Of a stretch of 64,000 nt of DNA, positions 2,709 through 49,091 are shown in pieces. Made by a program: the position numbers and the translations under genes. Numbering within the stretch: position 1 is the first letter of the stretch; every line of letters starts with the position of its first letter. The notes below the pieces were generated by a model. It saw only the letters and a program-made list of their open reading frames with translations, made no database searches and was not told the origin of the DNA. Source of the DNA: Tetraselmis striata (Eukaryota > Chlorophyta > Chlorodendrophyceae > Chlorodendrales > Chlorodendraceae); the NCBI GenBank assembly GCA_006384855.1, contig VCJN01003582.1:1-64000 (forward strand). The letters are read 5' to 3'.

Positions 2709-2947
2709 TCATATTGGTAATATAGAGGTTTGATTACACCGGGCTATTCTGTCACCGGTACTGGTCACGTTAAGATTCTAGTTTGAATGCTAGCTACCAG
2801 TACATGTACTCGCAGTACGCGTACCGCTTGGACTTTCCGATGTCCAGCGGCGCTAGCGACAGCATGCGACAGCCCTGCTATATGACGCACCCGCACCACG
2901 AGGAGAGTCCACCCTCTACCTTTGCGCCAGCTGACCACCTGGCGCAA
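2706..2947 (+). repeat. Left terminal repeat of the DIRS-like element
   Basis: This stretch starts with TCATATTGGTAATATAGAGG and matches 7350-7587 and 16,104-16,330 with few differences. It abuts the truncated gypsy integrase on its left. The right-hand copies extend about 55 bases further, into a segment containing CACCCCGCTATGCTACC that the left copy lacks. This asymmetry resembles the split direct repeats of PAT/Kangaroo-like DIRS elements. Confidence 0.85.
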
Positions 2948-5900
2948 CGGCGTCGCACCTCTCGTAGGTGTGCAAGGTGTGAATATCTCTACGAGTGGAC
3001 GGTCTCGACAACTAGTCTTCCACCACGACACTTGCGCACGCACGCTACCGACGATGGCAGGGGGCAAGAAGGTGGCAGACCCTACGAAGGCAACGCCAGC
3101 CGACAGTTTGGCCGAAACGCCCGCGGAGCCGACAGAGACAGCACGGGACACGACAACACTTGCGTTACTGCAAGCGCCGGCGTTGAAGGTGGACGCTTCA
3201 CGCTTTATCGACCCGCTTGGACAAACAGGACAACAACAAGCACAAGGAGCAGCGCGACATTCCCTCGGACGACGACGAAGTCGGCGAGGGTGGCAAGGAG
3301 CCGGAGCACGACGCCCGGATAGCCGCCGCTACGGGGGGGGGGGGGGGGGGGGGGGGGGCGCGCGACGCCGCGGCCGTGTTCATCGACCCTCGGGATTGGG
3401 AAGACCTCTTGCCCCGGGCGTACCAAGACTGCCCCCCCCCCCCCCCCCCCACCGGTCGGGCGCCACACGCCCGAGCCTTTGGCGGCCCCGTAACGACGAG
3501 GCCGACCGCTATCTCACTGAGGCCAACAAGACTGCGTCGCGCGACGAGTACCGCCACTTGCTGAGCTATGGCGTCTACCGCGCCGCCGCCAACGCGGCGG
3601 CTAAGACAACTCTGCTACGCTTCGCGCGCCCGATACCCCCACCCAAGACCGCGTCGACGCCCTCGACCTACTCGACGCCGCGCATCGCACGCTTAAAGCA
3701 GTGGGCGACGCGGATGAGGCCAGGCTCACCTACCTTCGACGCTTCAAGGCCAAGAAGGCCCTCACCCCCGAGGAACAAGTCGCCGAGCGACTCATCTACT
3801 CCCGAGTCTTCGACACCGCCGAGCATGAGCGCTCCGCCAACGTCGTCGACGGCCTCGAGGCAGCGCTCGAGGACAAGCGCCTCGAGAACGGCCTCGCGGA
3901 TGCGGCCAAGGCACAGGCATCAGCGACCTTCAAGAGGCAAGAAGCGGAGCGCGACACCGACCGCGACAAGGCGCGGAAGGAAAAGGACAAGGCGGCGCGC
4001 GAGAGGCGGGAGCAGCAACGCCGCGAGGCAGACGCCAAGAACCGCGACAAGAACAGCGACATGACCGGCGACAAGACACGCGACTGACGGTGTGGCGCGC
4101 CGCGCCGACAGTTGTTGCCCCGACTCCGACTATATGCGTCACCGCATAAGGCGGAGTTGGCGGCACTGGCGAAACATCGGCGCGAGCGCGCAAGTGACGA
4201 GCTGGATACGGGATGGCGTACGCGTGCCTTTCCGCTACAACCGGCCACCGCCAAGGTTCAACCAAGGCGTCTCGTTCAACGACGCAACCCCTGCCCAACT
4301 CAAGTTCCTCACCGCCGAACTAAGACGCTTTACGGCGGCCGGCGCGTGGGAGAAGCCTTCGTGCGCATGGTGGGTGTCCCGGGCGTTCTTCGTTCAGAAG
4401 CCCGGCGACAACCAGTGGCGTTTCATCATCGACCTCCGCGTGCTCAACTCCTTCTGCGCGCGCAAGAAACTACGGATGGAGACACTCATGGGCGTCCGAC
4501 ACCTGACCGTGAAAGGGGCCTACATGTTTTCGCTCGACCTGCAAGACGGCTTCTATGCCATGGGCATCGCGCCTTCCGACCGCGACTACTTCACGGTCAA
4601 CATCCGCGGGACACTCTACCGGCTGTGCGGCCTTCCCATGGGCTGGTCGCTCAGCCCTTACTACTTCACGACGTTCACGATGACGTTCGTCAAGCACCTA
4701 CGCTCTCCGACTACCCCCGCTGCGCCTGGCAATGTCCCGCGGTCGCGCCGCTGGCTGCGCCGCGGGCGGTGGAGGGGAGCGCGCATCTTACCATACATCG
4801 ACGATTCCTTGATGTTCGCCTCGTCGGAGCCGGAGGCGCTGGAGCTCCGCCAGCGCGTCGCCGACTTGCTGGACATCATGGGCCTGCTGCGCAACCCCGC
4901 CAAGGGGCTGTGGGAGCCGGTCCAGTACGGCCAGCACCTGGGGGTGGACATCGACACATCCACGGGATATTTTTATTCCCCGGTGGACAAACTGCAGCGG
5001 CTCGCGCGCCAAGCCAAGCAATTGCTGCAGCGCGCGGCCCGCGACGCCCGTTGGCTACCCGCCGCTGGAGCTGCAGTCGCTCGCTGGGCGGGCTCAATAC
5101 TTTTTTCTTGGCAATCCCGGCCGCGCGCTTCTACCTGCGGGAGCTCCACGACGTGGTGGGCTTGAAGTGGGGCGGCCGAGTGCACATGACACACCAGATG
5201 CGGCGCGACCTGCAGGGGTGGACCGCCGTGCCGACTCAGGCCAATGGCCGCCCTATCCACCGCCCTGTGGAGACGGCCTACATGCACTGCGACAGCTCCG
5301 GCTACGGTTGGGGTGCGGTGCTGAATGGCAAGCTGGAGGCGCGGGGGTTTTGGGGGGCAGCCGACGAGCGCCAGCACATCACCTGGAAAGAAAAGAAGGC
5401 CGTCCGGCTGGCAGTGGAGTCTTTCCTGTCGCACCTCGCCTGTCGCCGCGTGTTGCTGCACGAGGACAACCGGGCGGTGTGCAGCGCCCTTGCTGGCCTC
5501 ACTTCCCGCTCTCCGGCGATGGTGGCGGAGCTACGCAAGCTACGGTACCTGCTGGACAGCAACGGCGTACACATCAAAGCCCGCTACATCCGGTCCGCCG
5601 CGAACGTCTGGGCGGATCGACTGAGCCGACACCTCGACAGCGACGACTGGCAACTGGACCCCGTCATGTTCGCAAAGCTTGAGGCAATGTGGGGTGCGCA
5701 CTCCGTCGATCGGTTCGCATCAGCCCTGAACGCGATGCTACCACGCTACAACGCTGCGTGGTTGGACCCCGGTTGCGAGGCGGTGGACTCCCTGCACCTG
5801 TCCGATGCGAAGTGATGGCGTCGCGAGAACAACTACTGCAACCCCCCTTGGCCGCTTCTGCCGGACCTGGTGCAGAAGCTGCGCCACAGCGGCGCGGCCG

Positions 5901-7349
5901 CTACCGTCGTGGCCCCTCGCTGGGAGGGCAAGGTGTGGCACCAGGCACTTACCGAGATGGCGGTGGCGGAGCGCGTGGTACTGCCTCGCCGCGATCTTTT
6001 TCGGCCGGGGCGGAGGGCAGGGCGCGAAATGCCCGGAGCGCCGCGCTGGGCAGTGAGTGTCTTCCGTGTGCCATACCGTCATGGCTGCACCTGCGCCGCG
6101 GATCAGTGAGCGCAACCTTGGCGTTGTTCCCGGTACGAGGTGCTACGCCTGTCGTCAGGCCCGCGCGCGCGCCACGCGTGCCGCAGGCAAAATATGTTGG
6201 ACATCCAGAGCAGCGGCACGAACCCGTTGGCAGCTACTATGCATCCGTAAACGCGTTCAATACTAGGTAACGACCAACTCGGCGAAACGGCGCTTCATTT
6301 GTACAAGTCGGCGTGGGCAGAGACTATCGCCAGTACGTACGGCAGTAGTGCCATCCGCCCATTCCTACAGTTCTGCGCTGAGCAGGGTGTGCCGCCCCTG
6401 GGTGGCACGGCGGCAACCGTCGCGCGCTACATCGCGTGGCTGGGTTTGCGGGGGATGGTCAAAGCAGCCAGTCTGCAGCCTTACCTTTCCGCGATCAACG
6501 GTTTCTACCGCGACCACGGCGCGGAGCCGGTGGCGCAAGGCGACCTCATCAGCAAGGTGAGAAAGGGCCTCGCGGCATCGCAAGTTGAGCTAGACCCGCT
6601 TGGGGTCCGCACCGACGTGCCCGCCCGGTTGATCACACGGACGTTGCGGCTGGCGGAGACCCTGCGTGAGGAGTTGGGACCCACATGGACCCGCGACCAG
6701 CTTCCTCGTATCCTCTTGTTCCGCGCCGCGATGGCTGTCGTTGCCATGTATGTGTTCTACGCGCGTGGCAAGGCCGGCGTAGCCTGTCAAACGGGCGATT
6801 TGACGGTCACTGCAGATGGTACAATCCTATTGTACCATCGGGACCGAAAAGGCAGACGCGGGCAGCACCGTGACCGTAAGTTACAGTGCCAGATTCCGGC
6901 GCGCGCGCAGCCCCGGATTGCGGCCATGCTGCTCTATTTTGATGCCGCACGCGCAGTTTACTGCGGTCAGCGCGGACTGCCAGCAGCCCGGTGGGCAGTG
7001 ACCTACGACGAGCCGGCGGCATCGTGGACATCGGCCACCGTTACAGACTGGTTGCAGCTAGTGGCAGATATGTTGGAGGAGCACCCGCCTCCCGGGTTTG
7101 TGTGGACGTCACACTCTCTCCGCAAGGGCGCGGCCACTGCGGCGTACGCCATCGGCGTGGTGCTGCAGAAGATCAAGCACTTTGGCGGTTGGGCGCAGTT
7201 GTCCAGCGTCGTGCTCGACTACATCAATCCTACGGCGCTGCCGTGTGCGGCATCGTGGCAGCTCTTCGGCTGGCTTACCCCTTGGGTGGGCCGCCAGCGA
7301 CAGCCTGCCCGCCCATGGGCGGCATGATGGCAAATGCGGCCCCACAATG

Positions 7350-27656: not shown

Positions 27657-27941
27657 TAATCCCGTTAACGCTTATAAATAACCACTTTATTGTGTACTGC
27701 AGTGCTTGACGAACAGTACCGAGTACTGATTTTTATTACATAAGGGCTTTCGTCACAACAGTACCGAGTAGTACAGATCCATGATCATTTATTGTTAGAT
27801 AAAGCTAAATATGGGAGAGGCGCGTTTCAGTCTCAGCATAACATAAGTCGCTAAATGTAACCGCGGTCGTAAGAAAATATCTTCGTCATACATGTACTGA
27901 TTTTGTCGTACAAACCACAGATTTGTGCGGTTTAGGGTTAG

Positions 27942-28465
27942 TGTGACAATAATGGCATACTCTGTACGGGTACTGTATGATCGTAGCATCATTCATGTAC
28001 GAGTACCTGCTGTATCGTATGTGTGCGCGCGTGTGTCACGCGCCACAATACGAGTACTGGTGGATGATGAATCATGAGATGAGTCCTACTGGTACCGGTA
28101 CACTGTTCAGTAGTAGTTACGGGATAATACGCATGTGCGTACCCGTAGCGGGCATATATGTATAATGCACCTGCCTCTGTAACATCAGTTGTATACTTGT
28201 GTATAAACTGATGTGTCAACTACATGTGCGGAGGTCTCTAAGCGACGACCTCCTGTTCGACACTTCGAGGCACGACTCTCCACGGTGACGCGCTTAGCAG
28301 TGCGCGTGCCGCTTGGTGGTGGCTAGCTGTGAGCTAGCCATACGCATAAATAGCGGCGGGTGGTGACAACGTTGTAACCATTGTTTCTTTCTCTCTCTGC
28401 TGCCTTCTGTGTGTTTACGACAGCCTTGTCTGCTTGACCTGCGTGAGGCACCCTAGACTGTCGCA
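27942..28465 (+). repeat. 5' LTR of the chromovirus
   Basis: 524 bases, starting TGTGACAATAATGG and ending CTGTCGCA. The segment ACGCATAAATAGCGG at about 28,340 is a plausible TATA region for the LTR promoter. It is near-identical to the split 3' LTR. Confidence 0.93.
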
Positions 28466-28466
28466 C

Positions 28467-28480
28467 TGGTTTCGGAGCGA
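28467..28480 (+). promoter_or_regulatory. Primer-binding site
   Basis: TGGTTTCGGAGCG directly follows the 5' LTR after one base. It resembles TGGTATCAGAGC, the complement of the initiator-methionine tRNA 3' end used by many plant and algal LTR elements. Confidence 0.65.
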
Positions 28481-28544
28481 CTGTTGCGCTCCTTATCCTA
28501 GCTTCCACTGCTTTATCTGAGATAACTCGACTGAACAGTTCGAC

Positions 28545-29689
28545 ATGTCCGAGTCGATGAATTCTGCTGGCAAGAGCCGAGAGCTGCTGCTCAACGAGGA
28601 AAGTTCTGTCGACCTGTCGACTACCAAGGTTTGTGCAGCCGTGGTGGTGACTTACGGTAAGGGTCACTCGGTCGAACGCCAAGTGATTCTGACGACTGAA
28701 CCGAACGCTAGATCGACTCTCTTCTTACCTGTCGGAAAGTCGATAGCGTCTGACATTACTGTGCGCGGCACGGCTGTGCGGAAACTCCGCGAGGAAACTG
28801 GTCTGCTTGTCTCTGAGGACGACTTAGAACTGTTTGACGTTCTCATCATAGATGGCATGAAATGTTTCTTATATGCATCTAAGCTATCATCCAGAAAGAT
28901 AGCCAGTGAGATGCGCACGCCTGAAATGCGCACGCCTGAAATGAGCACGCCAGAAAGGTCGCTCGCTCTAGTCATATATCGCACCTAGCTGCACCAGTAG
29001 CTGCGCTGTACTGGACTGCCGGAGCAGCTCGGTACAGTGGGACTGAAGTCGACGACTACTGCCGGACTTGCACATGCTGATCAACGACCTGCTGTGACTG
29101 CGACCTGGGAGCTCGTCGTATAGCCGTTCATGTTTCGGCTCAAGTACAAGATCCTCAACGAGAAGCTTGCATCATCTATAGCAGCATTTGCATATGCATC
29201 TGCATCTATAGTATCATCTGCACCTGCATCTGCATCTATAGTAGCATTTGCACCTGCATTTGCATCTATAGTAGCATCTGCACCTGCATTTGCATCTATA
29301 GTTTGCATGCAGGTAAGTTTGTTACTACAGATGACAGCAGGACGTGCTGATGGAGTGCCGGTAACTTCCGCTGAGTACGCGTCAAGAATATGTCGACATA
29401 CCGGCGATATCTCGACAGGAGATAAGCAACGAGCCGATGACCGTCGAGTGTGCGGCGAACCTCGGCGTATCATTCGCTTGCTATCCGAGGAGAAGCACGA
29501 CGGAGTCGACGAGTCGACACGCTGTTCGGCGACCTTTGCTATGGTCTTTTAGTGGCGCCCGTTCTCTCGGTAAGTTGCCTCGGCACAAAACTGCATGAGC
29601 CAGAGAAGTATGCTAAGCACATGGCTGCCAAAACATGCTTTAAGTGTGGTGAGGCTCACCTTCTGAAAGACTGCCCTAAGATGAAATAG
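28545..29689 (+). other. Gag-like region of the chromovirus with a Nudix-like domain
   Basis: The first part (28,545-28,988) has the layout of a Nudix fold: VCAAVVVTYGKGHSVERQV, then LFLPVGKSIAS, then VRGTAVRKLREETGLLV and LELFDV. The box is close to GX5EX7REUXEEXGU but has Asp for the first Glu, one extra residue and Lys in place of the RE glutamate, so hydrolase activity is uncertain. Short tandem repeats follow (EMRTPEMRTPEMSTPE, and an Ala/Ser-rich 11-residue repeat at 29,175-29,305). It ends with a CCHC-like knuckle, CFKCGEAHLLKDC, expected of a nucleocapsid. This is part of the fossil element, and a Nudix domain here is unusual. Confidence 0.6.
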
Positions 29690-30089
29690 GGGTGCCCTTA
29701 TTCTGCTGCTGACAGCTCAGTAGATAGGGATGTAAGTGATGTTTGTGTTACATCATGCTGTCCAGTAACTGTCGAGTCGCATGACTGCGAAGTTACTGTT
29801 GCCGATATGTCATTGGCACCTGAGGTATCCGCATTATTGTCTAATGCACGTCTGAATGACGATATACCTGTGACGAGTACATGTTCGAGTGACGATGTCG
29901 TCATCTCTGAGAGTAGTAACGACTATGTTGAGTCGCCTACTGATGAGAACTCGAATAGTGTACGCGAGTCTGGTACGACTTTGCCAGTAGCCTGTGTAAC
30001 GGGTGCTCGGAAAGTTTCGACTCATCGTCGCGTAAAGGCTCTGAGGCGTCGTATGCCTAGAAAGACTGCAGTCAGTGCCGAGTGGCGAC

Positions 30090-30430
30090 TGGTCGATAGA
30101 GTCTTCGATCCCTTACATGAGATGTTCCAGTTTACGCTGGAGGGCTGTGCGGATAATGAGGGTCTGAATACCCATCGAAACTTGCCGTTCTGTTCAGAAC
30201 AAGATTCGATATTATCGCGCGACTTGTCGAATGAACGTGTGTTTATTCACCCTCCATGGCATATGACTGAGTCTATTGCGAGGCATTTTGAGCAATGCCG
30301 CAGTAGGGCTAAAGAACATACTGTAGGAGTGTTTGTATTGCCTGCATTTGATAGATTCAGTGCTTTGACAAAGCATTGGAAACTATTGCAGCAATACCCG
30401 GCAAAGACACCTTTGTTCACCAGGTGGTCT
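30090..30430 (+). other. Adenine-methyltransferase-like segment ahead of the protease
   Basis: EWRLVDRVFDPLHEMF, then ERVFIHPPWHMTESIARHFE, VGVFVLPAFDRFSAL and FTRWSHKN follow the pattern of Dam-like proteins: a D/N-PPY/W motif, a strand with LP, then a W/F...L segment. Such segments occur in some protist and animal retroelements. Here the catalytic-type motif is HPPW, so an active methyltransferase is doubtful. It is part of the fossil element's polyprotein. Confidence 0.5.
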
Positions 30431-33400
30431 CATAAAAATGCCACAGTCCAGGAAGATGTTAGACCGCCAAAGTATGGGGTTAACATTTGGTTAGTTGATG
30501 CTAACTGTGCTTTTCCTGATGACTTTGTACCTAAAACTGTCACAAGTCCAAATGTGAGTTTTAACGTGGACTCTGCAAAAGTTGCGGATTCTAGCGTTGG
30601 TATTGGTGAACGTGCATCTGAGTCTATAAATGAGTGTGATGCTGTCAATGTGACTGATCCATCATTTTGGAGTATGCAAAGGCAAAGTTTGCCTCAGATT
30701 GCTTCTTTGACTCGTTGGGATGACCCCAGGCCATTGTTGAAAGTTAATGTGACAATTAACGATGACGCCGTTGTGGATGCACTGGTTGATAATGCGGCAT
30801 CTTTAGATTTTATATCTGAGGACTTTGTGCGCAGAAACAACTTGCAGATACAAAAGTTGAAAGCCAGAACACCTGTCCGTTTGGCTAATGGTCAACGTGT
30901 CTCATGTTACCATACAACTGTTGTGTCTCTGTCTGTTGGAGGACATGTATTTGAGAATCGAGTATTTTATATACTGCGTGAGCTCAAAGTCTCCGACATT
31001 GTATTGGGTTTAACTTGGCTTGATGAAGCGCAAGTTACCATTAAGTATGGTACGGAACGTATCATGACTTTAATGGATGGAACCCATGTACCTGTTGTAA
31101 TAGTGGGTCGTACTCCTGCATGTAGCATGATTACTTCCACTAGGGTACAAAAGTTGATGCGCAAAACTGCTCGTGCGTCTAAGCATAATTCTTTGGCTGA
31201 ATTCTATGTCGTTGAAATGTCGGTTATAAAGGATGATCCTGACCTGCATTTAGACAATGCTATGACACCAGAGCAAAAGGATGCTATTCGTCATTTGTTG
31301 TATGACGAGTTTCCTGAAATTTTGCGTCCAGTCAACAGGCCGCCTGTTCATCGGCCATGGGATCACAAAATTGAGTTAACTGGCAAAATGAAACGCCAAA
31401 GACTTAATCGTTTGTCTCCCGCTGAACGTGCTGAATTGGATCGCCAACTCAAAGATGCGATTGCCGCTGGACTTGTTCGTCCTAGTCAATCTGAGTTTGG
31501 TTCGCCTATTCTTTTTGTTAAGAAGGCAGATGGATCCCTTCGGTTGTGTGTCGATTTTCGTGGGCTGAACGAGGTCACTCGAAAGGATATGTATCCTTTG
31601 CCGCGAATTGATGAAACGTTGGATTCTCTCCGCAATGCCCGTTGCTATACCCATCTGGATTTAGCATCAGGTTATTGGCAGGTTGCCATTGCAGAGGAGG
31701 ACATCCACAAGACAGCGTTTCAGACACCTGATGGTCTATGGGAGTGGACTGCAATGCCATTTGGTTTGTGCAATGCCCCAGCCACTTTCCAGCGCATGAT
31801 GAATGACATCTTGAGACCATTTTTGCGTGACTTTGTGGTGGTGTATCTGGATGATATATGTATATATTCAGATAATTATGATGACCACATAAAGCACCTT
31901 CGTTTAGTTTTTGAGAAACTGAATGAATATAATCTGAGGTTGCAATTAAAGAAATGTTTCTTTGGCATGCAATCTATGGATTATTTGGAGTATACCGTCG
32001 CTGATGGTAAGTTGTCTGTTTCAGAGGCCAAAGTAGCTGCAGTTAGGGATTGGCCTGTCCCTAAAACTCAGAGTGAAGTCAGAAGTTTTGTACAATTCTG
32101 CAATTTCTACTCTAAGTTTATTCATCATTTCAGTGATTTAACTGCACCATTGACTGACTTATTGCGTAAGTCTAAACCAGTTCATGTTGACTGGTCACCG
32201 GCGTGTCAGGACGCCTTTGAGACCCTTCGTCTGCGACTGATTTCCGCTCCGTGTCTTTCCATTCCTTCCATGGGGGCGGATGCGACGTTCACCGTAGCGA
32301 CAGATGCGTCCAACGTAGGGCTTGCTGCAGTAAAACTGCAGGACCAAGGAGGAGGTCCTCAACCAGTGGGTTACTGGGCGCGAAAGCTGAATGCAGCTGA
32401 GCGTGGTAATACCTACAGTGCTTATGATTTGGAAGCTTTGGCTGTCTGTGAATCAATTAAGCACTGGCGTTGTTACCTTGAAGGGTGCTGTCGATTCCTT
32501 GTTGTCTCAGATCATGACACCCTGCGTCATCTGCTCAGGCAACCGGCAGAAAGGTTGAACCGGCGACAAGTGCGCTATGTACGCGACTTGCAGCCGTTTG
32601 TTGGGTCCATATCTCTTGCACACCGAAAGGGCAAGTGGAATGAAGCCGATCCGTTGTCGCGTAGACCGGATTTTAAGCCGATTGGTTTCGGTGGCTTATA
32701 TTGGACCGGGAATGTGCCGGACGCGGCTGAATCACTCGTGAGTGAACAGCGCCCATGTACTGCGGTATTGTCGGCTGTAAGTGCGTCGTCACTTAGCCTT
32801 GATGACAATATTCTCCACCTTATTAAGGCTGGATATGCAGAGGACGCGTTCTACTCCTTATGGGGGGGGTGGAAGCAGTCCGGTCATGTGGTAGAGCACG
32901 ATGGTTATTTTTGGAGACATGGACGTCTTTGCATACCAACCAATCGTGACATCATCAATAAGATATTGTATGAGCTACATGATTCTGTTGGTCACCGTGC
33001 TTATGCAAGCACCTTGGCACGTGCCTTGGACCGTTTTTGGTGGACACGCATACGACATGACGTGAAAACCCTTGTGAACAATGTTCGGTGTGCCGGCGTG
33101 TTCGCGCACGTCCGCAGCCACCTGCACCAACACAGCCCTTACCAGTACCGCCACGTCCATGGCATACGGTTGGTTTGGCTTTTATAACCGAGTTACCTGA
33201 GAGTAATGGTTATAATACTATGTTGGTTGTGTGTTGCCATCTGTCCCGGCAAGCACATTTTATTCCAACCACAGTCAACGTGACTGGTGGACAGGCAGCT
33301 GAATTATTTCTGAAGGAAGTATTCAGGCTGCATGGAATACCTCGTGTGATCGTCTCTGATAGAGATCCACGGTTCCTGTCTGCATTCTGGCAAACTCTGT

Positions 33401-34352
33401 GGCGGAGACTTGGCACTAAATTGAACATGTCTAGTGGCCAACATCCTGAAACAGATGGTTTGACCGAACGCATTAATGCCATAGTCACTGAGTTGGCTCG
33501 TGCGTTTTGTTGTTTCGATGGTTCAAACTGGGTAGACCAGTTACCATTGATGGAATTTGCGTATAATTCCAACAAAGCACTTGGCATTGAGCATGCACCA
33601 TTTGAGGTTATGTATGGTTTCAATCCTGAAACGCCTCCGGATGTATTGTTTGGTATGAGACCAACAATAGCATTCTCTCGTGATGCTCAGCAACGTATCC
33701 AAGATATGAAGGAGATTCACGAGTTGGTTCGGTCAGTGTTGGCTGTCCATAAAGATGAATTGACTGTTCGACCTAGTATTAGGCAACAGCGCAATCCTCC
33801 TATCTTCAATGTTGGAGATAGAGTATCTGTGGATACCCGTCTGCTTAAGGTCAAAGGTCAGCCTTGCAAAAAGCTGATGGACAAGCAGCTTGGCCCATTT
33901 TCTATTGTAGAGAAAATTGGCGGTCATAGTTATCGACTGAAATTACCTGCTGGTGTTAAGTTGCACCCAGTATTTCATGTTAATAACTTGAGACCCTGTC
34001 CCACTGCGCCGTTGCGCCCGCATGTACCTCTTGTTGTTGGTACCGGTGACGACTCTGATGATGAGTATGAGATTGACAAGATTACCAGCGTTAAAATCGG
34101 TTCCATGCCCGGTTTACGTGGTACTCAGTTGCAATTTCTTGTTCACTTTGCGGATGAGTCTATTGCCCCTGTTTGGCATCGTTTGTTTGATGTTAAAAGG
34201 ACAATAGCATTGCAGGTAGGATTTTATGGCTACTCCCAAATGGTTGGACTTTGTAAAGTCACCTGAATTTGTGGAGCATATGCATAAATACCCGGCACGT
34301 GTGCCGACTGCAAATTAAACTGCCTGTGGAATGCTATTTCACACTGTTGTCA

Positions 34353-34369
34353 AGGGGGGAGAGATGTAG
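34353..34369 (+). promoter_or_regulatory. Polypurine tract
   Basis: AAGGGGGGAGAGATG lies directly before the 3' LTR, the expected position of the plus-strand primer of an LTR retrotransposon. Confidence 0.75.
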
Positions 34370-34515
34370 TGTGACAATAATGGCATCCTCTGTACGGGTA
34401 CTGTATGATCGTAGCATCATTCATGTACGAGTACCTGCTGTATCGTATGTGTGCGCGCGTGTGTCACGCGCCACAATACGAGTACTGGTGGATGATGAAT
34501 CATGAGATGAGTCCT
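34370..34515 (+). repeat. 3' LTR of the chromovirus, first part
   Basis: It matches 27,942-28,087 with one visible difference (GGCATC versus GGCATA) and is interrupted by the LINE at 34,516. With 38,869-39,246 it restores the full 524-base length. Confidence 0.92.
34503..34515 (+). repeat. 13-base target-site duplication, left copy
   Basis: TGAGATGAGTCCT here and at 38,856-38,868 flanks the LINE. The sequence is present once in the uninterrupted 5' LTR, which proves the insertion and its exact borders. Confidence 0.93.
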
Positions 34516-34766
34516 TTTTTTTTTTTCGCCCCCGGGACAGGACTGGCACCAGTGAAACCCTTGCAGCGTCTCTACGACGGCCGTTTAGGCAGCAATCCAG
34601 TTACGGAAAGCCCTGGGTAGGCGACGCTCCGTTATAGTCATCAAGCAAATTGCCGAAGCATTTCGCAAGACTAATTGGAGGCCAGTGACGGAATTTCCAA
34701 CACTGTTGGATCACCGTCTAAAACACTGCCATCAAAATACCCGGCACTGACCACGAAAGGTCCGCC

Positions 34767-36038
34767 CTACCCGTTTGGGCGTCGGCCCATTCGAGTAATG
34801 CGAGTTGGGGCAAGCCCCAACCCGCGGAGCAAAGCATTTCGGGAGTGCGATACATGTGCAACAAAAAAGGCAATGTGAGGGAGGGCCCGACGCCATAGCT
34901 GGAAAAATTTCCCATTCCCAGTAAAATCCAGGGCGCCGTGAAGGGAGGGGGGGACCCCGCCCAAAATAAAGGCAGTTAAGTCCTCAGGTGTTGACGCACT
35001 AACCTGACTACTAATAAAATCCCTGAACTCCGGAACTAACAACCCAAAATTATGACGGTGATACCCCCACCGCGGGCACTCCACCAACATATGTTCGATA
35101 GTCTCAGATTCACCTCCGCCACATGCAGGGCAGTGTTCAAGGAACCGCTCAGGCATGGCATGAATCCGGGCCAATCGGCGGGCAGTGGGAAATACTCGGG
35201 TGCGTAATTGTATCATAACGTGCAACCCGGCCACAACCCCCGCGGGGACACCCACACCGTACTGTGGCAACGGGTTTGACGCATAGGACGCCTGGACATA
35301 TATACCCCAGGTGTTATTGCGTGCTAACGATACCGACGATTCGTAACGCGCCCACACCGATGCCTTTACTAGTTTAGCGGCATCGCGCGCGGCTAGTGAC
35401 CTCCACTCAAGTGGAAGGTGCGCCCCCTCAGCTAGCCCTACGTTCGCCCTAGCTAGTCGATCTAACCACCGCACAGTCCCCGACGTCCACGTGTTAGGGC
35501 GCGCCCGACTTGGCTGATCTACTAAATGGGTTATACATGTATTCAAGTCGGATGCTTTAAGGAACGCCCGAGCCCGTGCCGCAGCGGCCGTAGCCTCTAT
35601 GGGCGCAATATCCAATTCCCGCATCATCGGTGCAGTGGCTACCCCAGGGGAGTTTTTACCTACCCCAATGAGGCAACGCAAGCACTGATTGAGTACAGTT
35701 TGTAATTTATTTGCGCCGCTAGTTCTATCCATGTCCCATACTTCACACCCATAAGTTAAAACCGGCAGTACACAGGTTTTAAAAACCGACACACGCACAT
35801 TAATAGGGATTATGTCCCGTCCACCGACTAATACCGAATCGAGCGCCTCAATAGCGCGTTTACCCTTCTTAACCCGGTCGTCTACTATGTGTTGCATACC
35901 TAAATCCGACCTAATGACCGTACCCAAGTACCTATATTCATTTACAACCGGTACCCGTTCCCCCCAAGCTGCCATCGGGCAGCTTGTTCGCGTAACGCGG
36001 TCTCGTCGGAATATCGGCCTAATGCCATCACCCCACAC
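34767..36038 (-). CDS. LINE C-terminal region with zinc knuckle
   Basis: This frame overlaps the end of the RT frame by 97 bases. It supplies the expected continuation RVPVVNEYRYLGTVI (thumb) and a C-terminal half with CPACGGGESETIEHMLVECP, a CCHC-type knuckle usual for LINEs. The two frames meet at the six-G run, where a -1 shift gives a smooth protein. This may be a one-base loss in this copy or real -1 frameshifting; the older copy is deleted over this point and cannot decide. The stop at 34,767 leaves a 3' untranslated region of about 250 bases. Confidence 0.85.
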   Translation of the reverse strand: MWGDGIRPIFRRDRVTRTSCPMAAWGERVPVVNEYRYLGTVIRSDLGMQHIVDDRVKKGKRAIEALDSVLVGGRDIIPINVRVSVFKTCVLPVLTYGCEVWDMDRTSGANKLQTVLNQCLRCLIGVGKNSPGVATAPMMRELDIAPIEATAAAARARAFLKASDLNTCITHLVDQPSRARPNTWTSGTVRWLDRLARANVGLAEGAHLPLEWRSLAARDAAKLVKASVWARYESSVSLARNNTWGIYVQASYASNPLPQYGVGVPAGVVAGLHVMIQLRTRVFPTARRLARIHAMPERFLEHCPACGGGESETIEHMLVECPRWGYHRHNFGLLVPEFRDFISSQVSASTPEDLTAFILGGVPPSLHGALDFTGNGKFFQLWRRALPHIAFFVAHVSHSRNALLRGLGLAPTRITRMGRRPNG

Positions 36039-38791
36039 TTAAGTACCCCAAACCCCATAAAATGATCCTCCGCCCACTGCGAGAAGTGGGCGAACATGGC
36101 ATGCAAGTTATCGAACGAGCCTGTGATACCAACAGCGTCGTCCGCGTATAACTGACCTGGCACCCTTAGTGGTTGCCTTGCCGCTAATGTGTCAGTGCAC
36201 CCTGGAACATCACATCCTAGATGTTCTACCCCATCGAATATATCGTTAATAAATATGTTAAATAGGATGGGGGAAGCGGGGCATCCCTGTCGGAGGCCAC
36301 GCTCTATGGGTATGGGGTCTGATAGTGTTCCCGGGGCCACCCCTGTCTTGACCCGTACCATACTATCCCTGTATAAAGTTTTAATGAAGGTAAGCATATG
36401 ACCCGAAACTCCTATGGCTTGTAGTTTTAGGAATAAAAGCTCATGAGGTACGGTGTCATATGCCTTCCTAAAGTCAATAAAACCCGCGTACGTGGGTAGA
36501 CCTGCCGCTTGGCGACGAGCCGCGATATCGAACAAGCTGGCGACTTGCATGGGGCCCTCCTCATTCCGCATAAAACCCGCTTGCCAACGGCGGATTATCC
36601 CTTTAGCTTGGCAGACGTCTTGCAAGCGTTGGGAAATGATGGTCATAAGGAGTTTCATAGCGGCACCCATAATCGAAATACCCCTATAATTGTCCATAAC
36701 GGTCGCGTCGCCTTTCTTGGGCACCGATACTATGGCCGAGCTACGCCACTGCTGGGGGATATAGTTCTTAGTCCATATCCCGTTAATTAAGGCCAGCAAT
36801 GCCTTGCCAAAATGGCTATTCGGGGCGTATATCGCCAATTTTAAAGCCTCTGCAGTGATCCCATCCTGCCCCTGGGCCTTATTATGTTTTAAACGCCTAA
36901 GAGCCTTGACTAGTTCCTCCCATGTTATATGCCCATTAATCCCGTTTAGTGCGGGGGCAATGGGTGGGGATGTACCGTGTCGGTGTTCCCACGCCGCACG
37001 GTATATCGCCACCCGTTGTGCTAGGGGGTGGGGGTCACGCAGCAGCTCCCGATAGTGCCGCGCCCAGCACGCATTGATTTCGCCCGGCTCGGTATGAAGT
37101 ACCCCCGATACCGGATCGCGTACTGGCTGGTCGTTCGCGCCCTCGAATGAACCCTGCCCCTTACGGAGAGAGCGCGCCCACTTCCAGAACTCCCGTCTCC
37201 CACCACCCTTCTTAAAATCCTGAACTGCTTTTAGCACGGCCCGATCCCTCTGGCGGCGGCGGTTATTACGTACTAGTGTCCGGACCCTATGCCGTGCAGC
37301 ATCATAATGTGCCGACGCTAGAGCGGCATCCCGAGGGCCCCTAGTCCCCCGGCACGCCATAAAGGCCATGCGCCGACGATTAATCGCACCTAGGATAGAC
37401 CGTTGGAGCGGCGGCCCTAGGCCACGACGCCTGGGCTTGGTAACAGCCCCTACCCCACGCGCCGCCGACCATATTGCCTGGATAAAGTGGTCGGCGCCGG
37501 TGTCTAGGGATCCCCCCCCTCCCGAGGGCCCGCCGTCTACAGGTGGGTCATCTAGAGGGGTGAGCACCGCGAACGGATTAGCGGTGACAAAATCGTGGAA
37601 CGGCTTGGGCCATTCAGAGGGAGAGTCACCGTGGGCCGGTTTGGGAATGGACCTTGCAGACAGGCGTTCATGCAGGGGAGGTGGACAGGCATCCTCACGG
37701 ATGGCGCCCACGGGGAAAGAAGACAGGACAGGGAAGTGATCGGAGGTGTCCCAAGAGTAGTCCACCCATGCCGAGGGCGAGAGAGGGGGGGGAGGGCCTA
37801 TGGTGGGAGGCCATGCGATGAAGTGGTCGAGAACGCGGCAGCTGCCCCTCCGGCAAGTACCCCGTTCGCGCGCCGATGCATCCCGCGGCCACATGGGCTT
37901 ACCGCCGGGAAGGCACCGCCAACGCCTGAGTAGAGCCGTCAACTCCCTTTCATCCATGTTCCAATCCCCCCCCACCACAATCATATCCCTCGGATAACTC
38001 GTCCGAAGCCGCGCCAACTCTTCGCGCAGGCGGTCCCGATACGGTTCCCCCTGTGAGCCGGTGGGCAAATAGGCCGAGATAAATATAGTGGCCGCGGAGT
38101 CACTGCAACCTCCCCCCACCCGGACACAGGTCCAACATGGGTGGGGCGCGCCGACTGCCCGCGCCCGGTTCGGCGACCGGACTAATACACAACACCCACG
38201 TTCCGATGCAACGCGGTCCCCGAACGAATAGTAGTCAGAGTACCCATTAAAACGCACTCGCATATCGGTCGCCCTAACCGTGGTCTCCTGAATGAGCAGA
38301 ACATCTACAGATCGCTCGATCAGCAACGCGCCAACATCCTCCACCTTAGAAGACAACCCATTCACATTAAGCGTCGCAACGCACAGGTGGGCGGGCATGG
38401 GAGGGAGGGGAAAGGGCAAGGGGTGGGAGGGAGGGGGAGGGCGGGCGGCGTGGCGATCCCAGTACGAGCGGTGTTCCCGCAAGTACCAACCCCACCGGCA
38501 TGCAAAACGCTGTAAACGCTCGCGGACATGCGCACCCTGCCCTTGGGTATAATACACATCAAAGCGCACTAGCTTATCCCGCTGCAACACACGATCGATC
38601 TTCGGAATGGCCGAGGGCCGGCCATTAAACGCCCGATCGACGCGGCTCCAAAAGGCAGGTAGTGGCGACGGGTCCCCCCAACAACACACACGACGCAGGG
38701 ACGCCCCAGCGCCCTCAGCCAAGTGCCCAACCGTCCAAGGGCGAACCCCCGTCACTATGACGGCTGCACCCGGTGGCGCGCGGTTGCCCAT
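35942..38791 (-). CDS. LINE endonuclease and reverse transcriptase ORF
   Basis: A 949-residue frame. An APE-type endonuclease lies at about residues 135-370 (ATLNVNGLSSK, LLIQETT, VVGGDWNMDE, SDHFPVL). The RT lies at about 590-910 (NKAQGQDGITAEAL, IDFRKAYDTVPH, LRQGCPASPILFN and the YADD active site, then KCGVMALG). No separate ORF 1 precedes it. The first ATG at 38,791 lies 64 bases from the element's 5' end, which suits a full-length transcript. The frame ends at TAA just after a run of six G (plus-strand C at about 35,957-35,962). The protein then continues in the -1 frame. Confidence 0.92.
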   Translation of the reverse strand: MGNRAPPGAAVIVTGVRPWTVGHLAEGAGASLRRVCCWGDPSPLPAFWSRVDRAFNGRPSAIPKIDRVLQRDKLVRFDVYYTQGQGAHVRERLQRFACRWGWYLREHRSYWDRHAARPPPPSHPLPFPLPPMPAHLCVATLNVNGLSSKVEDVGALLIERSVDVLLIQETTVRATDMRVRFNGYSDYYSFGDRVASERGCCVLVRSPNRARAVGAPHPCWTCVRVGGGCSDSAATIFISAYLPTGSQGEPYRDRLREELARLRTSYPRDMIVVGGDWNMDERELTALLRRWRCLPGGKPMWPRDASARERGTCRRGSCRVLDHFIAWPPTIGPPPPLSPSAWVDYSWDTSDHFPVLSSFPVGAIREDACPPPLHERLSARSIPKPAHGDSPSEWPKPFHDFVTANPFAVLTPLDDPPVDGGPSGGGGSLDTGADHFIQAIWSAARGVGAVTKPRRRGLGPPLQRSILGAINRRRMAFMACRGTRGPRDAALASAHYDAARHRVRTLVRNNRRRQRDRAVLKAVQDFKKGGGRREFWKWARSLRKGQGSFEGANDQPVRDPVSGVLHTEPGEINACWARHYRELLRDPHPLAQRVAIYRAAWEHRHGTSPPIAPALNGINGHITWEELVKALRRLKHNKAQGQDGITAEALKLAIYAPNSHFGKALLALINGIWTKNYIPQQWRSSAIVSVPKKGDATVMDNYRGISIMGAAMKLLMTIISQRLQDVCQAKGIIRRWQAGFMRNEEGPMQVASLFDIAARRQAAGLPTYAGFIDFRKAYDTVPHELLFLKLQAIGVSGHMLTFIKTLYRDSMVRVKTGVAPGTLSDPIPIERGLRQGCPASPILFNIFINDIFDGVEHLGCDVPGCTDTLAARQPLRVPGQLYADDAVGITGSFDNLHAMFAHFSQWAEDHFMGFGVLKCGVMALGRYSDETALREQAARWQLGGNGYRL

Positions 38792-38855
38792 ATCGGGGCC
38801 AACCCTACCGGAGCTACGGTTATGTTATACCAGGCGGGAAAACTCGGTAATGCGG

Positions 38856-38868
38856 TGAGATGAGTCCT
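38856..38868 (+). repeat. 13-base target-site duplication, right copy
   Basis: Identical to 34,503-34,515. Confidence 0.93.
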
Positions 38869-39246
38869 ACTGGTACCGGTACACTGTTCAGTAGTAGTTA
38901 CGGGATAATACGCATGTGCGTACCCGTAGCGGGCATATATGTATAATGCACCTGCCTCTGTAACATCAGTTGTATACTTGTGTATAAACTGATGTGTCAA
39001 CTACATGTGCGGAGGTCTCTAAGCGACGACCTCCTGTTCGACACTTCGAGGCACGACTCTCCACGGTGACGCGCTTAGCAGTGCGCGTGCCGCTTGGTGG
39101 TGGCTAGCTGTGAGCTAGCCATACGCATAAATAGCGGCGGGTGGTGACAACGTTGTAACCATTGTTTCTTTCTCTCTCTGCTGCCTTCTGTGTGTTTACG
39201 ACAGCCTTGTCTGCTTGACCTGCGTGAGGCACCCTAGACTGTCGCA
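38869..39246 (+). repeat. 3' LTR of the chromovirus, second part
   Basis: It matches 28,088-28,465 with no difference spotted by eye, ends CTGTCGCA and is followed by TTAGG. Confidence 0.92.
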
Positions 39247-41169
39247 TTAGGGCCGGCCACGCGGAAATTGACATCCACTTTCGGTCGTAACCGCATGCAC
39301 CGTGTCCATCCCCCAGCCCCCTCGCTCGCCACTCGTGACTCATAGAGCGTGAATATAAATGTACGTCCGCCCGTCAGGGCTCTGTACAACGTGCGGGACG
39401 GCGGTGGGTGTGGGGAGCAGCCCAGTGTCGGCCTGAGCGGCTGGTGAGGCACATTGCAGCGCCCGGCGCCATCGGCCGGACCTTGGGCATCCCATGGCAC
39501 TGCTGGTGACAAATAGGTCCTCCCATACCACTACCGACCGCCAATGATGACTAGTCTCAGGCTCCCGTGCCGGGCCACCGTAACTTTGTAGGGCTCTACG
39601 ATGTGACGGAGTGGACTTGCGACCGCGCATTGCGTCGGGTATACCCCCGCCGCGCGCGCTTCGGAGACGGGGCGGGCAGTGGACAGGCAGCGGTCACGGC
39701 CGCGCCTTGCTAGTCATGTTCACCACTTGCTGCGGCTGCTGCGCTAGAGGTTCGTCTGGTTATTTCCAGGTACCCACCTATTTGCGGCTGGCATCCTGTA
39801 CATTGCGCAAAACGACATGTACATACTGCACAACATCCACCCCATCGCTAAAAACAGCATACATCTCACAACCACGCGTCGTGGCATGCTACTCAGGCAA
39901 CGCCGCATGGAGGTTGTTGCTTTGCACGTCCCGTTGCCTGCCGATATGTGGCTTACTCTTCCGCGAAGCGAGCCGAGCTTATTGATTAAGACCTTCCACC
40001 CGAGTACCGGTACGACTTCCGGACCCTCATGGCCGACGCAGCCCTAAACGGCTCAACTGCGGAGGTGATGGTGAGTGAAAGTGCTCGGAGCATCTTAGAG
40101 TGGGAGCAGCGAGCCGGGCAGCCAGTAGCCAACGCAGCCGGGGGAGCACAGGGCGGGCTGCTCGTAGCTACGTTTCCGGCTCCTAGTAGTAGGGCTGTTG
40201 CTTGGGCACGGTCGACTCGCATAGCTCGGGGGGCTGCCGCTGTCGGCTGAGGACGGGTCGCCTCCCGCGGTTGACAGCATGGCTTTGACACTCTTTCGGC
40301 TGCCGGGTACCTCGTCGTGAGAGACGACATGGCTTGATGCTCCGACCGTAGATCATTGCATGAGCATGGTGCTGCGGCGGTGCAGGCTACGATCATAGAC
40401 GCGGTTGCATCCTCGGACCGTCCGGTAGAACGAGGCCGGAGTGCGTCCCCATGTTGGTAAGATGCTTGGGGAGAGGCTGGGAGCCCCGTCGGACCAGTAA
40501 GCGAGACCTTTTGGCAAGCGGGGCGTGATAGGCCGGACCTGGATAGGTAGGCGCCTGGGCGGTTTGTTTGTTGTTCCCGACTGAATTTAATAGTCTGAAG
40601 CTGGAATTCAAGAGAGAATCCAGCTGATTTGGAAAGCTCTCATCAGCTCATCTTTAGCGCAGCTCCGCCTGGACATCCTCCCCCCCCCCCCCCCCCCCCC
40701 CCCACACCCCCGGCATGTGGTGGCGCTCCAAGGTATTGCTTGTGTTGGCGGGTTGTTAGGGCTACGCCTATCTAGCGACTACCCTAGTACCACCACAAAC
40801 CTGTGACGCCGAGATTATGGCCAATAAGTATTTGTACCTGTACTGCTGTTGTACTGCTGTACTGATATTTCAGCACGCGTATTATTTACTGGTACGGCCA
40901 AAACCAGACGCCAGTAATCTTCCTTGTAACATAGAGAACGCGCTACAACTCCTAAATCATCAGGATAGGCGCTACTAGCTGCCTATCCGCGGTACCGAGT
41001 CGGACCGCTACAGGATAGATATGTAATGCAACCGACATATTGTAGCAGATTACATCCAACAGCAACAAACTCAATTCGCCAAAATACTACGAGTATAGCC
41101 ATGTATCATTAAGTACTGCCACGAGTACTTGAACTGGTTTCGGCTTCCTGTTACGATCCATAACCTTAT
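39247..41169. other. Repeat-rich stretch without a recognised gene
   Basis: This is the right flank of the chromovirus. Frames near 40,029-40,250 look coding-like (Ala-rich) but match nothing known. It contains the second copy of the PAC4 intron segment with a C tract (40,577-40,745) and short TGTACTGCTG repeats at about 40,842-40,865. Confidence 0.4.
40577..40745 (-). repeat. Copy of the PAC4 intron segment
   Basis: Matches 26,900-27,080 on both sides of a C tract (40,680-40,703). No PAC4 exon sequence accompanies it. Confidence 0.75.
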
Positions 41170-45583: not shown

Positions 45584-48500
45584 ATGGCGCGGGGTAAAAG
45601 ATCAGACGGAAATGCCAGGATGTCGACCTGGTTGCCGCTGGCGTTGCTTCTCCTGGCAGGTGCGATCACTCAGCCTGTGACCTCTCAACCCCTCCCAAAT
45701 TCAAATGAGCAATCACATGCAGGCATACGGACCGACAGATGCACGTCAAGCTTACCATAACCACGCTCCCGGGTCGCTTTATCTTACTATCGTTACCCCC
45801 TGATGAGCAGAGAGAGAACCTTTTCCTGGAACATGTCAGAATACGATACAAACTCTACCTGGATATCCTGACTCTACGCCGCAAAAGTGTTCGTTATCTT
45901 TTTGGACTCGCAAACATATAAATAGTATGTACAGTATCCTAACTTATGCTGTGATTCCCGCCAAAGAGGGAGAAATAGAGAGATATATTCCTGGAAATAC
46001 GCCATCGCAATGCAGCATCAACGCTGCTCGACAGTCATCGCCCCTCGATCCTTCCTCGATGTTGCCACACAGTGCATTTCTGACCTGCAAACCCAGCAAG
46101 TGAATCAGGCAGTGTCCTTTGAAATGCTACAAGCCGCGCCATGCAGCGGGGTATGGGGAGCACCGAGCTGACGCCCCCCCCCCCCCCCCCCCCCCCTGCT
46201 GTTGTCCCTCCCCAGGGCTCTCTGCCAGCGGAGGCGCTGCGCAGAGCGACGCCATTGGCGCGCCCGCTCTGACCGCCGAGCTGGACACCTCTGCGATGAG
46301 CTTCTACGGATTCTACGGCTTTTACGGCGTTCAGCCCGGCGCGGACATCAACTGCGACGTGCTGTACATCCGATTCAACCTTTACAACTACGGCGCGGCG
46401 GACCTCACTTCCGTCAACACCATTAAGTTCATCATCGACCGGACCAAGGCGGCCGTGGACGCCACGTACCTGCTGGCGGTGCCCACCGGCTCGGATTCGG
46501 ACTACACCGTGGCCATCACGGAGCTGTCTGCCACCTTCGTGACCTACGTGCAGGTCACGGTCGAGGTAGACTTTGGCCACGATGGGGAGCTGGGCGGCGC
46601 GTTTGCCGCCCTTCTGGGCATCGACGGGAACGACCTGCCCAGCGACAGGCGCGACGGCCGCTACTTCACGCCTGACGTCGCGCCGGTGGAGCTGGAGAAC
46701 ACCTTTGGCGTGGATGTCGTGGTGGGTAGCTACGAGTTTGCCGTGCTGGAGGCGAGCGGCAATGAGCGCGTGGCGTTCGACGCCGCGCTGCAGGCCGCCT
46801 TCCAGAGCGCGGTGCTGCTGTCGACCGGCGACCAGTCGGCGGCCGACGGCCTGTCCGTGCAAGTGCTGGGCGTCGAGGACGGCGGCGCGGACGGCGTTGT
46901 GGCGCGCCTGTACGTGCACTTTAAGGAGGAGGACGCCGAGGCGCGCGAAAGCTTCCGCACGCAGCTCGATAACGACCCGTACGGCCTTGGTGACAAGTGG
47001 GGCGTGCTGGCCTTCGAGATCAAAGTGGTGGAGGTGGCGGCGGCCGTCGCGATCGACCCCGCCTCGAACTCGTCAGGGCGCCGGCTGCTGCAGAACGGCG
47101 CCGTTGGCGCGGAGGGCGGCACGAATCAGCTGGTGGTGCAACTTGCGTCCGCCGGCCTGGGCGTCGCGTCCATCGACCCCGGTGCCGTGGAGTGCGTGCG
47201 TGCGTCGGTGTCGAGCTTCTATGGCTTCTACGGCACTACCGCCGGCTCTGCATCCGAGCTGCCCGACGGCTCCTCCACTGCCGTCGTCGACGGCTCCTCC
47301 GCGCTGCCAGGGGCCTCGTCTGCCGAGCCGCTCTCGGAGTCCTCCGCCCTCCCGCCCGTTGAAAGCGACGATGTCAGTGACGATGTCAGCTTCTATGGTA
47401 CCACCTCCTTCTACGGCACCACCTCCTTCTACGGCACCTCATTTTACGGCACCTCCTTCTACGGTGCCGACAGCGCCGAGGTCGGCAGCAGCGGCGGCGC
47501 TGTGTCCTCTGGCGCGTCGGGCATCAGCTTCTACGGCTACGAGCCAAGTCCCAGCCCGCCGCGGCCGCCGCGCCCCCTCGGCCCGCCGGCACCGCCGCCG
47601 CCGCCCAATTTTGCCGGCTGGATCCCTGTGCGCTTCACGACGCTGCTCGCCGACTACAACATCGAGGACGTCTCCAGCCCCGAGGACCGCGCCACCTTCG
47701 AGGAGGACTACTACGCCTCTATCGATGCGATGGTCCGGCTGCTGGGAGTTACCGGCGAGTACCAGACCGAGATCGACGACATCCGGCCGCAGGACGGCAT
47801 CGGCTCGACCGGCATCGCGGCCGTCACCACAGTGTGGTTCCGCGACGACACCGTCGGTGCCGATCTTGTGTACCAGGTGCTCAACCAGAACCCGGCACTG
47901 GTGTACCCCGCCTTCTCGCCCGTCGGTTCCGTAACCATCGTCGATGTCAGCACGGCGCCGCCGTCGCAGAACCCGGGGGGGGCGTCCAACACGGCATTCC
48001 GCGCCGACATCGACGACCCTACCGACCTCGACGAGCCCTTCGAGCTTCCCTCCCACATCTGCGAGGCTCGCGACCGCGACCGACTCGGGAACTGCTGCCC
48101 TGCGCCGCTGGCTATGGACGCCTTATACGAGTGCTGCACAACTGCGGAGGTGGACGAGTGCGGCGTGTGCGGCGGCGACGCCTCGACATGCGCCTCTGCG
48201 TTCACAATGCGCGTGGCGCTCGACGACGAGGCGGGGCGCGAAATCGTCGGCTCGGCAGCCTACACCGCTGCCCTGGATGAGATCCGCGCCGACGTCGCCA
48301 ACTACCTCTTCCGCGTCCCGCTGGACTCGGTGCTGCTCGATGACGACGTCGTGGTGAGCCGCAACGAGGATGGTGAGCTGACGTATACGATGGAGGTGAC
48401 GATGCTGCCGGGAGATGGCCGCGCCGCGCCCACCGTTGACACCCTGAACAGCGTGGTGGGCCGTATCAACAGCGAGATTGAGCTGCCTGACCAAAAGGCA

Positions 48501-49091
48501 CTCGAGTCCGCCTGGCACCTGCACCGAGTGGGTGTCTGTGGCAACGGCGTCTGCGAAGTCAACGATTGCAACGACGACTGTGGCCGGGAGGACGACAAGG
48601 CGGAGGTGGAGGAGGTTGAGGCGGCAGACGAGTCGTGCCCCACCGGGGTGCCCGGCATGCTCGTGGGCGCCGAGGGCGCTGTGTGCTCCGACACCGGCGT
48701 GTGCGAGGCGGGCGTGTGCCGCTGCGACCCTGGCTACATCGGCGCGTCCTGCTCCATCTGCGCTGCCGACTTCATCCCGAGCGGTGGCGTCTGCGTTCCC
48801 AACACCGACGCCGAGCCCGTCCCCGGCGATGCCGCGGTCGAGGCGAGCCCTGCCGCGCGCCAGGAGCCCAGCACCCCGTCTGTTGATCCCGTGATTGCGT
48901 CCGGAGAGGCGGAGTCGGCCGGCAACAGCTTCTGGGTCACCACCGCCGCGGGCATGGCGACCATCGCCATCGCCGCCGCGGCCGTGCTGGCGCTGGTGGT
49001 GGGCGTCAGCTACTGGGTTGGATCCAGATCTCGGCGAGAGCAGTTGGCGATGACACAGCCCGACATCCCCGACACAAGCAACAGCGTGTGA
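45584..49091 (+). CDS. Type I membrane protein with FYG repeats and Cys-rich modules, two coding exons
   Basis: Exon 1 (45,584-45,659) encodes a signal peptide (STWLPLALLLLA). Donor GTGCGA and the acceptor at 46,214-46,215 join in phase to exon 2 (46,216-49,091), giving about 983 residues. The ectodomain has FYG repeats at about residues 54-64, 359-364, 417-442 (six units SFYGTT/SFYGTS) and 463. A Pro-rich hinge (SPSPPRPPRP) is at about 470-490. Three alpha/beta modules resemble each other. A DECGVCGGDASTC motif is at about 674, a CGNGVCEVNDCNDDC motif near 799 and an EGF-like CRCDPGYIGASC near 860. A membrane helix (about 930-958) and a short basic cytosolic tail end the protein. It is probably a cell-surface or scale/wall glycoprotein; no named family is recognised. 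Start at MARG or at the inner MSTW is open. Confidence 0.82.
45660..46215 (+). other. Intron of the FYG-repeat gene with a C tract before the acceptor
   Basis: The donor GTGCGA follows LLLLA plus one base. The acceptor CCCTCCCCAG restores the frame. A run of about 30 C (46,167-46,197) ends 18 bases before the acceptor, where a polypyrimidine tract is expected. No coding sequence lies in the intron. Confidence 0.75.

Follow-up and report, generated by a model that had tools for sequence, protein, structure and literature searches.

A degenerate, truncated Nudix-like segment at the expected gag start of a Ty3/gypsy retrotransposon in the green alga Tetraselmis striata

In a 64,000-nucleotide stretch of the Tetraselmis striata genome (contig VCJN01003582.1, positions 1 to 64,000; hereafter the window), a Ty3/gypsy retrotransposon carries, inside its long terminal repeats (LTRs), downstream of its primer-binding site (PBS) and upstream of its zinc knuckle, an open reading frame (ORF) of 147 amino acids whose resemblance to Nudix domains exceeds chance (table 1). 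On balance, this ORF is probably a degenerate and truncated Nudix-fold segment, either captured or strongly diverged, that lies where a decayed gag begins and is carried as a non-catalytic passenger by a helper-dependent copy. Its placement between the PBS and the zinc knuckle had been proposed in a first-pass annotation of the same DNA, whose coordinates and quoted motifs are all present and whose residue-level description proved right.

The element that houses this ORF is a true Ty3/gypsy insertion of recent date. It displays LTRs, a target-site duplication (TSD), a PBS, a polypurine tract (PPT) and the order protease (PR), reverse transcriptase (RT), RNase H (RH) and integrase (IN); its RT–RH segment finds the Ty3 RT as its best match in the PDB (E 1e-74), and its two LTRs are identical at 523 of 524 positions, with one mismatch (alignment and blastn). 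The LINE nested in the 3' LTR is accompanied by a 13-bp target duplication common to both LTR parts and by a T-run at its 3' end. The insertion site of the element itself (27931–27941 and 39247–39252) reads TTTAGGGTTAGGG, a plant-type telomere-like motif. Elsewhere in the window lie a second, decayed gypsy element (721–2711), about 39% identical in RT–RNase H to the one studied here; a DIRS-like element (2886–7327), which has an RT region and weakly matches a tyrosine recombinase (Phage_integrase, E 0.002); and a 995-aa ORF (46104–49091) rich in SFYGFYG/TSFYG repeats, the C-terminal part of which gives an EGF-like match.

Table 1. Features of the Ty3/gypsy element, of its Nudix-like ORF and of the nested LINE (window positions).
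Feature	Positions	Strand	Remarks
Target-site duplication	27938–27941 (left); 39247–39250 (right)	+	TTAG, 4 bp; read from the sequence
5' LTR	27942–28465	+	524 bp, TG...CA; alignment and blastn
PBS	28467–28479	+	TGGTTTCGGAGCG; one base past the LTR end; complements the tRNA 3' end ...CGCTCCGAAACCA
Nudix-like ORF	28545–28988	+	ATG 28545, TAG 28986–28988; 147 aa
Box-like segment	28734–28805	+	residues 64–87 of the 147-aa ORF
15-bp tandem repeat	28907–28956	+	encodes (E)MRTP repeats in place of the C-terminal Nudix half
Continued ORF frame, probable decayed gag	28989–29549	+	two more stops: TAG 28998, TAG 29121
30-bp minisatellite	29173–29302	+	stop-free, inside the continued ORF frame
CCHC zinc knuckle	29636–29674	+	C-FK-C-GEAH-LLKD-C; frame open 29441–29686
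pol ORF	29690–33187	+	Dam-like segment, aspartic protease (DNAA), RT, RNase H, integrase HHCC
Integrase core and C-terminal part	33061–34266	+	shifted frame; Ala in place of the first catalytic Asp
PPT	34352–34364	+	AAGGGGGGAGAGA; immediately ahead of the 3' LTR
3' LTR, part 1	34370–34515	+	blastn
LINE	34516–38855	-	endonuclease and RT; nested in the 3' LTR
3' LTR, part 2	38856–39246	+	3' LTR split by the LINE insertion

The support for the Nudix assignment comes from profiles. Among Pfam families, NUDIX (PF00293) is the only one that the ORF matched (hmmscan), at 22.1 bits for a curated cut-off of 21.1 (E 1.6e-4), so that the search against this family which the first-pass annotation had put forward as a check came out in its favor; the alignment joins ORF residues 29–98 to profile positions 4–67 of 134, that is, to the N-terminal half only. 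None of nine control versions of the ORF (eight shuffled, one reversed) matched NUDIX in hmmscan. A profile of 36 bacterial Nudix domains, built for this analysis, gave the ORF 12.4 bits, a score reached by none of 5000 shuffles, and ranked it first among the 565 ORFs of at least 60 aa in the window (E 0.004 for the set). Another, whose 24 Nudix domains were drawn from IMG/VR contigs, gave 23.2 bits (top shuffle 8.8; 0 of 5000 equal) and an hhalign E of 5e-6 with a probability of 86%, scores that are somewhat inflated because the pattern by which the domains were fetched, RE[LVI]xEETGL, shares EETGL with the ORF and makes the comparison partly circular. Weaker matches were obtained with the PHROG nudix hydrolase family (E 0.017) and with NCBIfam PRK09438, a dihydroneopterin triphosphate diphosphatase (E 0.0072, well under its cut-off). 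A search of an anti-phage library gave no match.

In principle, LPVGK...AVRKLREETGL could occur without any relation to Nudix, in a random ORF or at the N-terminus of an ordinary gag that evolves fast, and several observations are in line with such a coincidence. The similarity is concentrated in about 45 residues; searched as a single sequence against some 780 bacterial genomes, the ORF returned chance-level matches only, and phmmer found no Nudix protein in the PDB. The fold predicted from the ORF by itself is poor (see below), and the codon usage is not coding-like: it departs from that of pol (GC3 0.57 vs. 0.41), scores no better in the ORF frame than in another, and gives no positive sign of translation. 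The departure from pol fits either a foreign origin or a loss of constraint. We nonetheless consider fortuitous similarity rather unlikely, for the profile E-values lie far under chance, the Pfam cut-off is exceeded, and two profiles, each built on its own, gave the same result against 5000 shuffles. Likewise, the strand–helix–strand order around the box fits a Nudix domain, and the frame, which is open from 28521 to 28988, has no stop in 155 codons when shuffled sequences average 7.7.

Structure prediction gave a divided answer to the expectation, set out in the first-pass annotation, that a Nudix fold should be recovered. Run on the single sequence, AlphaFold2 yielded no such fold (pLDDT 50, pTM 0.44), and Foldseek listed no Nudix structure among the matches of this model, none of which was useful. 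When guided by an alignment with the 24 Nudix relatives, it did produce a Nudix fold (pLDDT 73.7, pTM 0.67), in which the box helix is predicted at residues 73–85, followed by strands at 94–102 and 105–112. Against the PDB, this guided model gives 22 matches at E<=0.001, nearly all of them of Nudix fold, and it superposes on MutT (3a6s) with TM-scores of 0.57/0.65, values that descend from a partly circular alignment; the model thus shows compatibility with the Nudix fold rather than independent proof of it. Among the solved structures that it matches is the C-terminal domain of MUTYH, a Nudix fold that serves binding instead of ordinary hydrolysis.

The best phmmer match of the ORF in the PDB is the KH1 domain of PCBP2 (E 0.28, residues 60–92), and a degenerate KH-type RNA-binding domain (..G..IGKKG..VKKMREESGA.I) would be apt for a gag protein. 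However, KH profiles score the ORF at 5–8 bits, which 3–11 of 5000 shuffles match, when Nudix profiles give 12–23 bits that none of 5000 attains; the GXXG loop is absent, and Pfam KH_1 does not match. A KH identity was accordingly rejected on its weak profile scores and missing loop, and strikes us as barely credible.

The ORF is not expected, from its residues, to yield a normal Nudix hydrolase. Measured against the box GX5EX7REUXEEXGU, it reads G64-x5-D70-x8-R79-K80-L81-R82-E83-E84-T85-G86-L87: the alignment retains G64, R79, E83, E84, G86, and L87, yet an Asp (Asp70, at G+6) stands for the first Glu, one extra residue ahead of R79 brings the spacing to 8 instead of 7, and Lys80 turns RE into RK. 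The metal-binding glutamates equivalent to E53, E56, and E57 of MutT are therefore not all present, since E83 and E84 are kept and the equivalent of E53 is K80. In MutT, E53, the RE glutamate, is a metal ligand required for catalysis. Moreover, the C-terminal Nudix half is missing; past residue 112, the ORF enters a 15-bp tandem repeat and then stops. Given the Lys at the RE glutamate, the displacement of the first Glu, and the missing C-terminal half, the activity on nucleotides, caps, or ADP-ribose that the first-pass annotation had entertained appears unlikely; its other suggestion, that a box so altered might have just a structural role, gains support from Asp70, Lys80, and the extra residue.

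The position of the ORF, which begins 65 bp past the end of the PBS, is that expected for the start of gag, the term "gag region" being here positional only because the element has no recognizable capsid: neither Retrotrans_gag nor Ty3_capsid matched in Pfam, and a gag profile built from other gypsy loci recovered the zinc-knuckle stretch alone (7.8 bits). Downstream of the ORF, the same frame contains 2 stops up to 29549 when shuffled sequences average 8.8 (P 0.0025 for this frame; 0.014 when any frame is counted), a deficit to which the minisatellite contributes. This weakly suggests that the Nudix-like segment may once have formed the N-terminal end of a gag frame, now decayed. Alternatively, a fragment of a host Nudix gene, together with non-coding DNA (28989–29600), might have been transduced into a single insertion lineage and have replaced gag without any fusion. 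Such an origin would agree with the absent capsid, with the 600 bp or so of non-coding-looking, minisatellite-bearing DNA that follows the ORF and with the codon usage unlike pol; we regard it as highly unlikely, given that the frame of the ORF continues with few stops to 29549 and that the ORF begins where gag is expected to.

A spliced gag was also considered, GTAAGT at 29313 serving as donor and TTTTAG at 29552 as acceptor; with this pair, the ORF frame is kept, but it meets a TAA at 29571 and does not reach the zinc knuckle, and the candidate was rejected. A second idea, prompted by the first three stops of the frame all being TAG, was that TAG is a sense codon. It was rejected too, as TAG codons are absent from the 1165- and 401-codon pol ORFs as well as from the ORFs of the LINE and of the DIRS element, and one LINE ORF terminates with TAG. 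The zinc-knuckle frame itself ends at an in-frame TAG at 29687 (AAA TAG GGG TGC, 29684–29692), directly ahead of pol. This single stop between zinc knuckle and pol suggests, from its placement, that Gag-Pol may be made by stop-codon readthrough.

Between the zinc knuckle and the protease, pol residues ~126–219 (29690–30680) show Dam-like similarity to phage N6-adenine methyltransferases (PHROG DNA methyltransferase, E 6e-4; TIGR01712, E 1.7e-3; motif HPPW). DIRS elements are known to carry Dam-like domains (PMC5890265), and we found no report in the literature of one in a gypsy pol.

Scans of IMG/VR with the ORF, the RT–RH segment, the Dam-like region, and the RT alignment returned no locus of the element. 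A scan of prokaryote assembly contigs with the RT alignment returned 14 gypsy loci, apparently eukaryotic contamination, with which the element can be compared. The element is not intact; beyond the missing capsid, its protease and integrase turn out to be broken. The protease motif is DNAA, vs. DSGA in loci L001, L002, and L003; the integrase changes frame near 33060–33190, and its first catalytic Asp, kept in L001 and L010, is an Ala. The first-pass annotation had taken the element for a chromovirus, a label that Pfam does not support, as Chromo gave no match to the window integrase ORF up to E 10. By eye, the integrase C-terminus looks chromodomain-like, and the Chromo match in L001 falls just under the cut-off. 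Near-identical LTRs around damaged genes imply the recent movement of an already damaged element, of which mobilization in trans would be the simplest explanation; gene conversion between the LTRs, or damage after insertion, are the alternatives.

On the reading that we prefer, that of a captured passenger, an ancestor of this copy would most likely have captured a segment of a cellular Nudix gene, for instance by template switching during reverse transcription, and this segment would have become the beginning of the gag frame. The remaining gag would then have decayed or been lost, hence the undetectable capsid, the stops, the minisatellite, and the change of frame ahead of the zinc knuckle. 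The product of the ORF, if made, would be no more than a small module with a structural or ligand-binding role. The copy, with its damaged capsid, protease, and integrase, would probably have been mobilized in trans by an intact relative, the ORF being carried along.

One may instead imagine a working accessory domain shared by a whole family, in which a conserved Nudix-fold Gag N-terminus would hydrolyze nucleotides or caps, or bind RNA or nucleotides, the present copy being a defective member. Between the ORF and a point shortly ahead of the zinc-knuckle frame, few stops interrupt the reading frame, as for a gag fusion; this would suit the scenario, as would the recent movement of the element and the presence of binding-type Nudix folds, such as the C-terminal domain of MUTYH, among the structural matches of the model. 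Against it, the RE glutamate is here a Lys, the C-terminal half is absent, and an ORF-like segment was found in none of the 14 other gypsy loci (tblastn, best E 4), although this absence says little about the element's own family because these loci are only 34–49% identical to it in RT. Likewise, Pfam detected no Nudix domain in the proteins of four gypsy loci (L001, L002, L003, and L004), where it matched Retrotrans_gag (under the cut-off in L003). We deem the working domain unlikely, and still more doubtful its stronger form, in which a Gag-N-terminal Nudix fold, kept by selection in intact copies, would have nucleotides, RNA ends, or caps as its substrates inside the virus-like particle, or would bind RNA or nucleotides without catalysis, and of which this copy would be a decayed member.

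What is at stake differs between these possibilities. If other copies keep the Nudix domain, a nucleotide- or cap-acting fold would be added to the few enzymes that Ty3/gypsy elements are known to have captured, in gag and not in pol, and it would become testable whether retrotransposons edit the nucleotide pool or RNA ends within their particle. If, as is more likely, this is a single degenerate capture, it would be an instance of gene capture at the PBS–gag junction in a helper-dependent copy, of modest interest.

That Ty3/gypsy elements capture domains is already established for dUTPase, AlkB, and DNMT3. A dUTPase was captured by fungal Ty3/gypsy elements such as PosPlaTy3 (PMC2864245), and the bdelloid LTR elements Juno, Vesta, and TelKA carry dUTPase as well as DEDDy and GDSL ORFs (PMC5408684). 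In orchids, a Ty3/gypsy element bears an AlkB m6A demethylase that is active in vitro (PMC9289625), and in the charophyte Klebsormidium, a Gypsy element encodes a Dnmt3 under purifying selection (PMC5890265). The word Nudix is absent from the text of these four papers, and across the titles and abstracts of the open-access literature (subscription papers and Repbase being outside this scope), no paper reported a Nudix domain in an LTR retrotransposon, the two terms co-occurring only incidentally. Among the gypsy loci compared above, L001 (7047–8789), a gypsy-like element on an "archaeon" MAG contig that is likely eukaryotic contamination, harbors a full dUTPase after its protease (E 4.6e-43) and a 993-aa gag.

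Set beside these systems, the element shares with Ty3/gypsy retrotransposons (Metaviridae) the LTRs, TSD, PBS, PPT, zinc knuckle, PR–RT–RH–IN order, and GPF/Y-type integrase end, and differs from them by its lack of a detectable capsid, its altered PR and IN motifs, its 5' Nudix-like ORF, and the Dam-like segment ahead of its protease. Its ORF resembles the Nudix superfamily (MutT, the NUDT proteins, Dcp2) in the succession of a strand, an LPxGk strand-loop, the box helix R..L.EETGL, and further strands, but departs from the Nudix box and lacks the C-terminal half. With the dUTPase-carrying LTR elements, L001 included, it would have in common the capture of a nucleotide-metabolism domain by a gypsy-type element; there, however, the domain lies within pol or at either end of it and recurs across families, whereas here a single copy has a broken Nudix half-domain where gag begins. 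As in the orchid AlkB and Klebsormidium Dnmt3 elements, a Ty3/gypsy element of a plant or alga appears to have captured an enzyme domain; the AlkB and Dnmt3 domains preserve their key residues, the former with activity in vitro, the latter under purifying selection, whereas the box of the present ORF is degenerate.
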